DNA from: Thermomicrobiales bacterium
GTDB lineage: Bacteria; Chloroflexota; Chloroflexia; Thermomicrobiales; UBA6265
Length of the DNA: 45,496 nt
Assembly (NCBI GenBank): GCA_020432165.1
Contig: JAGQGU010000005.1
Span: forward strand, 186,280-231,775
Direction of reading: 5' to 3'
Shown here: in pieces, positions 32,056 to 34,313 of the stretch
Numbering within the stretch: the stretch's first letter is position 1
Layout of the letters: each line of letters begins with the position of its first letter
Notes under the pieces: model-generated
Told to the model about the DNA's origin: nothing
Database searches by the model: none
The model's input: the letters and a program-made list of their open reading frames with translations, nothing else
Position numbers and translations under genes: made by a program

Positions 32056-32610
32056 ATGATTGCAGGTCATATTGGTGCGGCGGCAGGTGCAAAGCGATGG
32101 GCACCGGATGTGCCGATTTGGGCATTGTTGGTAGCGAGCTTTCTGCTGGACATTATCTTCCTGCCACTGTGGCTATTCGGTGTGGAAGATGTAACCGCGA
32201 TTCCCGGTACCGATGGCGGCTACGGCAATATGATCTTCAATATCGACTGGAGCCATTCCTTCTTTGGCACACTGGCGATCTGCCTGGTGGTGCTGATCGT
32301 GTGCACGCGCTGGTGGGGTGCCAAGGGGGCATTCGTGCTGAGTTGCGTGGTTTTCAGCCACTGGTTTCTGGATGTGATTGTCCATAATTTGGATATGCCG
32401 ATTCTGCCCGGCGATGCGGGCGTGACACCACGCGTTGGTATCGGTATGTGGGATTTCCCTGTGTTTACCGGGATCATGGAGTTGCTGTTGGTATTGGGTG
32501 GTTGTGCGATCTGGTACACCATGCCGGATGCCACCGCCGCCACCAGAAAGGCCGCAGTAATCACCACCGTGGTTGGTATCGTGGTATTGGCCGTGAATTT
32601 CTGGATGTAG
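32056..32610 (+). CDS. DUF457-like membrane protein (putative metal-dependent hydrolase)
   Basis: This 184-residue protein has about five membrane helices. It starts MIAGHIGAAAG and contains WSHSFFGT and SHWFLDVIVHN. Such His/Asp motifs at helix ends are seen in the YdjM/DUF457 family of inner-membrane proteins, described as putative metal-dependent hydrolases. The function is unproven. GGAG at 32044-32047 supports the ATG at 32056; the much longer open frame upstream overlaps the J-domain gene antisense and is not credible. It is divergent from the J-domain gene and is followed closely by a REP-like hairpin. Confidence 0.72.
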   Translation: MIAGHIGAAAGAKRWAPDVPIWALLVASFLLDIIFLPLWLFGVEDVTAIPGTDGGYGNMIFNIDWSHSFFGTLAICLVVLIVCTRWWGAKGAFVLSCVVFSHWFLDVIVHNLDMPILPGDAGVTPRVGIGMWDFPVFTGIMELLLVLGGCAIWYTMPDATAATRKAAVITTVVGIVVLAVNFWM

Positions 32611-32633: not shown

Positions 32634-32682
32634 GTAGACTCGGGCCTCGCAAGGCGCTTGCGCCTGCGAGTTGCCCGGGTTC
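32634..32682 (+). repeat. REP-like palindrome, left of the RAYT gene
   Basis: The 49-bp element starts with GTAG and folds into a long hairpin on the plus strand. The outer stem is ACTCGGGC (32638-32645) with GCCCGGGT (32673-32680). The middle stem is CTCGC (32646-32650) with GCGAG (32666-32670), and the tip is GGCGC-TT-GCGCC (32653-32664). Its outer 17 bp on each side match the right element in inverted orientation. Confidence 0.85.
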
Positions 32683-32737
32683 CAGCACTCGCTAATATGC
32701 AACTCCGCCACCAGTCCCGCCTCAACCCTACAGATCC

Positions 32738-33256
32738 TCAGTAGAACTCATCCTCTCCCCAGCGATAGACGTTGTTGGCTACGTAGTCTCGCAATATCCC
32801 CAACTCTCTCTCGTTTCGCACAATGTGGTCATGGAAACTGCTCTGCCACACCTTACCGCTGTATGGTTTCCAACCCAATCGCTTGACACCGTCACCGAAG
32901 CGACGATGCGTGGTTGTCTTGAGCCATTGCACAATGTCGATCAGATTCGTCTCGTCAGCGATGTCCTCTATCCGTACAGCCAAACCAATCAGTATGTGAA
33001 CATGGTTCGGCATGACCACGAAGGCATCAATCGTGGTGTTTGCATGAAAGTCAGGAATTGATGCAATGGCATCGTGGACCATTGCGCCAGCGGGAGATTG
33101 CGTCATTTCTCCATTCTCGATCACGCCAAAGTAGGAGTGGCGTTCATGAGTGCAGATGGTGACGAAGTAATAGCCAGCCGCTGAGTAGTTGTATCCACGC
33201 TGCCGTACGCGACGGGTGGTACCAGGTCGTATTGCTTTCCGGTTGGGGAAGATCAT
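32738..33256 (-). CDS. REP-associated tyrosine transposase (RAYT, Y1/HUH family)
   Basis: This 172-residue single-domain Y1 transposase is related to IS200/IS605 TnpA. The metal-binding HUH motif is HVH at residues 85-87 in VMPNHVHIL. The candidate nucleophile is Tyr158 in LRDYVANN. The family's conserved N-terminal RxYNYxxxGxYFVT and the WQSSFHDHIVRN segment are also present. RAYTs cut single-stranded REP hairpins next to a GTAG or similar tetranucleotide and are usually fixed, domesticated genes. Matching hairpins flank it on both sides, which strongly supports this assignment. It appears intact. Confidence 0.88.
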   Translation of the reverse strand: MIFPNRKAIRPGTTRRVRQRGYNYSAAGYYFVTICTHERHSYFGVIENGEMTQSPAGAMVHDAIASIPDFHANTTIDAFVVMPNHVHILIGLAVRIEDIADETNLIDIVQWLKTTTHRRFGDGVKRLGWKPYSGKVWQSSFHDHIVRNERELGILRDYVANNVYRWGEDEFY

Positions 33257-33292
33257 GCCTGGACTCCAGAACTACTGGGTCGGCGAGACGTC

Positions 33293-33340
33293 GAACCCGG
33301 GCAACTCGCGCAGCTTCGCTGGCGCGAGGCCCGAGTCTAC
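33293..33340 (-). repeat. REP-like palindrome, right of the RAYT gene
   Basis: On the minus strand this 48-bp element begins GTAGACTCGGGC and ends GCCCGGGTTC, like the left copy. The centre differs in sequence but still pairs: CTCGCG/CGCGAG plus CAGC/GCTG around a 3-nt loop with one bulge. The different but still paired tip indicates selection for the hairpin. Confidence 0.85.
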
Positions 33341-33371: not shown

Positions 33372-34313
33372 TTAGTCAAACTGACCGGAACGTACCATCG
33401 CGGCGATGAGATTGAGGATGAGGCGAGCCGTGACCGTGGCGGTGACGGCGCCGGCATCGCTGGCCGGATTCACCTCAGTGAAGGTAGCAGCGGCAATTCT
33501 GGCGCGGGCAGCCGTGGCCATCAACAGATCAGTGGCATCCCAGTAGTCAATCCCGCCGAAGGCAAGGCTGTTCACACCCGGTGCGATTCCGGGATCCAGC
33601 ACATCGACATCGAAGTTGATATACGCCGTCTCCATTTCGGGATAACGGGCGATAATGGAATCGGTCCCCTGCCCCTTGATCTCCCGCGCCGGATAGAAGG
33701 TATTGCCATTCACGATCGCGGCCTCGGCATCCCCCACACGGGCACTTCCCGCGCCACGAAGGCCAAACTGGCTGATGTGCCGTATGTGCGCCATTTCCGA
33801 AGCACGCCGCATATTGCTGCTGAGGCCATCGCGCACACCATCGCGATCATCCCGGAAATCCATATGCGCATCGAAATGCATCACTTCGATATCGCTGAGA
33901 TCATCCAGCGCGCGCATGACCGGAATCGGAATCGAATCATCGCCACCGAGCACGATCGGCACCGCACCACGAGAACGAATTGTGCGGATAGCTGCTTCGG
34001 TGCGAGCATGATTCTCCGCACCTGTTTCGGCAGAGCCAACGAGATTCCCGCAATCGACCAGCCGTAGTGACGCGCCATTGAGAATCGATCCACCGAGGTC
34101 GATATCGTAGTGCGTAAAGAAGCGTCCATACCGTTGGGAGGCAGCACGGATGGCGTCCGGAGCATCAGTCGAGAGCGCGGCTGGTGGATAGGGCATACCG
34201 AACGGCGCACCGATGATAGCAATATCGGCCTCGAGTGTGGCAATGTCCTCGCAGCGATCAAACGCGGCAAAAGTCGGCTGATCGGCAGGTACGGGGGCGA
34301 TGAACTGCGTCAT
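33372..34313 (-). CDS. Agmatinase/arginase-family ureohydrolase
   Basis: This 313-residue enzyme is of the ureohydrolase family, which cleaves guanidino compounds to urea and an amine with two Mn ions. Ligand motifs are GGDDS at 123-127, DAHMD at 148-152 and FDVDVLDP at 234-241. The usual GGDHS His, a manganese ligand, is Asp126 here; this variation is seen in part of the family but changes the metal site. Agmatine, guanidinobutyrate or another guanidino acid are possible substrates. Its start overlaps the stop of the MFS gene by four bases (ATGA), so the two are translationally coupled. It is the last gene of the third cassette. Confidence 0.85.
   Translation of the reverse strand: MTQFIAPVPADQPTFAAFDRCEDIATLEADIAIIGAPFGMPYPPAALSTDAPDAIRAASQRYGRFFTHYDIDLGGSILNGASLRLVDCGNLVGSAETGAENHARTEAAIRTIRSRGAVPIVLGGDDSIPIPVMRALDDLSDIEVMHFDAHMDFRDDRDGVRDGLSSNMRRASEMAHIRHISQFGLRGAGSARVGDAEAAIVNGNTFYPAREIKGQGTDSIIARYPEMETAYINFDVDVLDPGIAPGVNSLAFGGIDYWDATDLLMATAARARIAAATFTEVNPASDAGAVTATVTARLILNLIAAMVRSGQFD

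Follow-up and report, generated by a model that had tools for sequence, protein, structure and literature searches.

How REP sequences spread through bacterial genomes is a long-standing question, to which the usual answer is 'by the RAYT'. The locus considered here, a RAYT gene between two inverted hairpins, raises this question for a Thermomicrobiales bacterium: is this transposase sufficient to explain the related hairpins scattered over the genome? The hairpins were analyzed in a window of 45,496 nucleotides (the whole stretch of DNA under study), in the draft assembly to which it belongs (3,216,338 bases), and in congeneric genomes, one per species. The reading reached is that of an ordinary REPtron whose REP pairs probably hitchhike in a miniature element of the terminal inverted repeat (TIR) type. 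In the following, REP-A denotes the family of the window REPs, G000 this genome, and G001 and G003 two congeners. The features of the locus are:

32059..32607, plus strand: left neighbor, a membrane-protein-like gene with no Pfam match, kept beside MFS-agmatinase in G003 and G001
32634-32682, plus strand: REP1, 49 nt, with an alpha-type CAAGGCGC core in the upper stem
32683..32720, plus strand: post-REP1 stretch of about 38 bp, matching the alpha half of the scattered-doublet spacer
32738..33256, minus strand: RAYT (TnpA-REP), 172 aa, an intact ORF with a PNHVH HUH motif (H85, H87) and the catalytic tyrosine Y158
33293-33340, minus strand: REP2, 48 nt, with an alpha-type GCCAGCGAAGCTGC core, inverted relative to REP1
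33375..34313, minus strand: right neighbor of the arginase/agmatinase family, separated from the left neighbor by an MFS gene in G003 and G001

The RAYT gene and its hairpins

The RAYT ORF matches Pfam Y1_Tnp (E = 1.7e-8), and a 38-row alignment of its relatives shows no variation at H85, H87, or Y158. The NCBIfam model REP_Tyr_transpos is matched at 9e-18 (64.5 bits, under the curated 80-bit cut-off) and IS200 at 2e-4 (21.6 bits). When an AlphaFold model (pLDDT 88.5) is superposed on the experimental structure of the E. coli RAYT-REP complex (4er8), TM is 0.59 and rmsd 3.3; in a Foldseek search ISDra2 TnpA ranks first by E-value and 4er8 best by query TM and rmsd. Residues 162-163 (window 33256..32741, minus strand) read NV where NP is nearly invariant after the catalytic tyrosine, a feature common to the window RAYT and its three closest relatives (L020, L021, L142).

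REP1 consists of a GTAG head, an 8-bp lower stem (ACTCGGGC/GCCCGGGT), a TT bulge on the 3' arm, and an upper stem. REP2 shares head, lower stem, and bulge, and the GTAG of both lies on the outer side of the pair. Identity between the two hairpins extends over exactly 17 nt from either end (5', GTAGACTCGGGCCTCGC; 3', GCGAGTTGCCCGGGTTC), as the preliminary description had it. Their folding energies of -17.6 (REP1) and -18.0 kcal/mol (REP2), with z = -4.6 and -5.0, respectively, are equalled by none of 200 dinucleotide shuffles. With the Y1_Tnp match, the HUH motif, the tyrosine, and the flanking inverted REPs, the earlier identification of a RAYT/REP unit, a Y1 transposase between two inverted GTAG-headed hairpins of about 48 bp, is borne out. 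At a distance of about 610 bp, the RAYT-flanking pair is not a REPIN. A search of Rfam yielded no match above threshold, and a scan for GTAG-headed 8-bp hairpins in the window alone gave four matches versus five in the reversed control; the REP pair is distinguished by its genome-wide copies, exact copies of REP1 among them, and not by the window-only scan.

Six RAYT genes are present in this genome, several of them visibly flanked by GTAG or GTAC hairpins of their own. The window RAYT forms one clade (99/97) with L020, L021, and L142, relatives from G003 and G001; near this clade the tree places L015, another RAYT of this genome, and L143 of G003. REP type tracks the RAYT tree: the window clade is accompanied by long bulged REPs of REP-A design, the L015 and L143 RAYTs by GTAG-CGCC hairpins. 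The REPs at the related RAYTs of the congeners are diverged and show GTAG, an 8-bp lower stem with compensation, a 2-nt 3' bulge, and an exchangeable upper stem. Among 78 complete RAYT loci, a GTAG-type hairpin is found within 300 bp of the gene in 60, versus 14 control windows, and hairpins on both sides in 30, versus no control window. Relatives beyond the genus are often from Chloroflexota.

The REP-A family and its inverted doublets

The scattered copies foreseen in the preliminary description exist. Its strict pattern finds 13 copies in the assembly, and up to three mismatches raise the number to 36; the reversed control gives none in either case. When related lower stems are included and read by structure, at least 47 REP-A copies are present. 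The true number may be higher, as several contigs break off within or next to a REP, and copy counts from pattern searches may likewise be low. The REP-A lower-stem class occurs in G000, G001, and G003 and is at background level elsewhere in the family, so that judged by sequence REP-A is confined to the genus, in keeping with the lineage-specific family proposed earlier. Many intergenic matches, often as inverted pairs, had also been expected, and this holds as well: in a crude ORF calling with a 110-aa minimum, 16 of 44 copies (36%) fall inside an ORF, compared with 76% for random positions, and at least 13 inverted pairs are found.

The family alignment comprises 68 members, 47 from this genome and 21 from the two congeners. 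The GTAG head is kept in 58 of them, and the 8-bp lower stem shows covariation, pair 6 being G-C in 43, T-G in 17, and C-G in 5 members and pair 7 G-C in 42, C-G in 18, T-G in 5, and A-T in 3. A 2-nt bulge follows on the 3' arm, with T at its first position in about 66 of 68. Most cores extend the pairing of the lower stem if this bulge is assumed, and hardly any if it is not. In the variable upper stem, 49 different cores occur among the 68 members. Those of REP1 and REP2 differ and are both of the broad alpha type. The compensatory change first read into the two cores thus applies to the lower stem, where covariation is family-wide, and not to the cores themselves, which are different interchangeable modules.

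The inverted REP-A pairs carry GTAG outside and have 64-65 bp between the lower stems. With core types assigned by eye, 12 of 13 doublets are alpha/beta and one is alpha/alpha; random pairing would give 12 or more mixed doublets at P = 0.006. Similar heterodimers are the Y/Z pairs of E. coli BIMEs and those described in PMC3733652.

A second class of REP, GTAG-CGCCGGGT-TTTAT-ACCCGGCG, stands 2 bp after the REP-A tail in the same orientation (G000 C9:1223, C9:23536, C51:6971, C51:30381, C63:491, C82:88991, and C99:6757); it is similar to the hairpins that accompany RAYTs L015 and L143.

A carrier with terminal inverted repeats

Outside most doublets the sequence is conserved as well. About 43 bp beyond each GTAG starts a 19-bp terminal inverted repeat (CATYYGTWCCGAGAAAATR), which forms the ends of a carrier of about 245-250 bp when it holds a plain doublet; spacer, REP, and outer flank are common to the copies as one unit. 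A terminal repeat lies outside the REP in 27 of 43 copies with enough flank; the threshold for acceptance was a score of 14 out of 19, which is the 99th percentile for random windows at the same loci. In about a third of the REP-A copies no terminal repeat is recognizable; these may include products of the RAYT or elements that have decayed.

In a set of 22 elements from G000 and G003, target duplications of 9-10 bp with at least 8 of 9 bases matching border 10; among mismatched flank pairs there were none in 462. A GTAG-type hairpin (at most one mismatch) is contained in the reconstructed target of 11 of the 22, versus 2% of random positions; about half of the elements are without a clear duplication or target hairpin. 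In the clear cases the duplication equals the hairpin loop plus about 2 bp per side, e.g. ACTTTATGT in GTAGCACCGC-ACTTTATGT-GCGGTG. The carrier thus has the terminal inverted repeats, target duplication, length below 400 bp, and lack of a gene that define a MITE.

G003 harbors one kind of carrier without REP-A and another with its own REP doublets, one REP pair of which corresponds to the two REP types at the RAYT on G003 C34. Carriers of 260-400 bp without REP-A and with many other internal hairpins were seen at G003 L181-L187, L189, L191, L193, L194, L196, and L200. No carrier terminal repeats were detected in G001 or G002, both 72% complete (0 matches in G001). Nested insertions occur: at G000 C21:1-330 (L044) a TIR element sits in the loop of a second-class REP, itself within the apparent spacer of another element. 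A helper transposase or autonomous element with carrier ends was not found in the assembled contigs. One candidate for an autonomous partner, G003 C11:23331-25006 (L184, 1676 bp), was rejected, being a carrier with a nested IS3-family IS (rve, HTH_Tnp_1; ends TGGAGTGTT/AACACTCCA; likely 3-bp duplication GAA).

Other insertions lie exactly at the REP-A GTAG head or the matching carrier point (GTAG|TAACTGTC... and ...AATAGACAAG|ACTCGGGC). Their junctions are seen at G000 contig ends (right: C21, C32, C52, C58; left: C105, C64, C9). An intact counterpart in G003 (L201) holds an IS110-family transposase (Pfam DEDD_Tnp_IS110, 1.7e-20). As the G000 assembly, with junctions at contig ends only, gave no match to an IS110 protein, the link between these junctions and IS110 is a presumed one.

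The window unit differs from these carriers. No terminal repeat lies outside REP1 or REP2 (p = 0.77 and 0.46), whose scores of 9 and 10 are background. On the REP1 side, the hairpin and the 38 bp after it correspond to the alpha half of the doublet spacer (score 38, shuffled mean 20.9, p = 0.001), and the REP2 side has no match to the spacer (p = 0.55), nor has the RAYT locus on G003 C34 a significant one (p = 0.64 and 0.13). A RAYT gene inside a full doublet spacer was rejected, the match being at the REP1 side only. This match hints that internal deletion or insertion may connect the RAYT unit with the doublet, a route of the general kind put forward by Bertels & Rainey (PMC3116915).

The gene order in G003 and G001 is up298, membrane protein, MFS, agmatinase, MFS; this genome lacks the middle MFS gene and has the RAYT unit at that position. 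Since the RAYTs of G003 and G001 reside at other sites, gene order makes it most likely that the unit is derived here and is not an ancestral founder. The 'founding doublet' of the preliminary description thus finds no support: the unit looks derived, its pair is alpha/alpha, unlike 12 of 13 scattered doublets, and no fewer than 27 of the 43 testable REP copies are housed in TIR elements with ends that the unit does not have. In G003, a GCAG-headed REP of REP-A design (L170 2368-2413, C28) directly follows the MFS gene absent from the window and occupies the intergenic site corresponding to the window locus.

How the doublets may have spread

On single-stranded DNA, the RAYT would most likely recognize the GTAG head, the conserved lower stem of 8 bp, and the 2-nt bulge of the 3' arm; any paired upper stem would be tolerated, which would explain the free exchange of cores. 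By analogy with E. coli TnpA-REP, it may nick and rejoin REP DNA. As 27 of 43 REP copies lie in duplication-making TIR elements, the RAYT alone does not explain the copy number. Presumably, REP doublets became cargo of a non-autonomous element of about 250 bp with 19-bp terminal inverted repeats, which would be moved by a putative transposase of the 9-10-bp-duplication type and would often insert in loops of other GTAG hairpins.

A closer cooperation is a tentative extension of this reading, possible though not favored: a DDE-moved element would scatter doublets into the loops of other REPs, and the RAYT would later rewrite the REPs inside to its own type in each species. Signs of it are the REPs inside the same terminal repeats, which are not the same in G000 as in G003 and correspond to the flanks of the local RAYT, an element at G000 C54:5548 with a beta-side outer flank and an alpha core, and a chimeric REP. 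The latter (G000 C62:76718-76765) joins a second-class head (GTAGCGCCGGG) to an alpha REP-A body and stands in tandem after an intact REP-A.

The classical model has doublets (REPINs) spread in trans by the RAYT alone and treats the conservation of the outer sequences as incidental. REP types following RAYT relationships, the fixed 64-65 bp spacing of the inverted doublets, and the copies without terminal repeats all agree with it. Nevertheless it appears unlikely: spacer, REP, and outer flank go together, and 9-10-bp duplications lie outside the terminal repeats, whereas RAYT-type Y1 enzymes are reported not to make larger ones (PMC2817692), so that a different transposase would be needed for the carrier.

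Alternatively, the hairpins could be the TIR element's own parts and the RAYT locus an old element copy that gained a RAYT gene, as the half-spacer match beside REP1 would suggest. This is quite improbable, given the background scores outside REP1 and REP2, the unmatched REP2 side, and the many G003 elements with the same terminal repeats and no REP-A; furthermore, GTAG hairpins also flank related RAYTs far outside the genus, and G001 (72% complete) apparently has a RAYT locus with REP-A and no TIR match. Least probable are hairpins kept mainly as terminators or RNA-stability elements between convergent genes, their mobility being past, which would suit the position of REP1 and REP2 about 25-31 bp past the stop codons of two such genes and the depletion in crudely called ORFs, but leaves GTAG heads, doublet geometry, RAYT linkage, and target duplications unexplained; such a role can coexist with mobility.

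With REPtrons (Nunvar 2010, PMC2817692; TnpA-REP, PMC8266576) the preferred system, a REPtron with hitchhiking REP pairs, shares the Y1 RAYT between two inverted GTAG hairpins, a REP family of its own, REP types that follow the RAYT, and a stem bulge as in group 2 REPs; it differs in the long two-storey hairpin with interchangeable upper stem and in its occurrence in a genus distant from the proteobacteria in which such units have been studied. The doublets resemble BIMEs and REPINs (Bertels & Rainey 2011, PMC3116915; PMC3733652) in their inverted pairs with GTAG outside, constrained spacing, heterodimers, and alternative inner stems, but most are internal to a larger TIR element with target duplications. 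IS elements are known to insert at REPs, including the palindrome axis (Tobes & Pareja 2006, PMC1525189). Insertion at this axis or at a fixed REP point (as for the IS110-family IS621 and ISPpu9) recurs here, yet the element that targets loops of other REP classes is non-autonomous and carries a doublet, and a presumed IS110-type IS sits at the GTAG head. Like bacterial MITEs (Correia, RUP, MITEAba12, PMC6382973), the carrier is short, has terminal inverted repeats and a target duplication, and bears no gene; unlike them, it has a REP doublet as cargo. A partial literature search, which is no proof, found no precedent for a TIR element with target duplications that carries a REP doublet and often lands in the loops of other REPs.

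In this genus, most REP copies are traceable to another vehicle with recognizable ends and target duplications, so copy number alone is not evidence of RAYT activity. The natural series of one head, lower stem, and bulge combined with dozens of upper stems predicts, in turn, what the RAYT would read.
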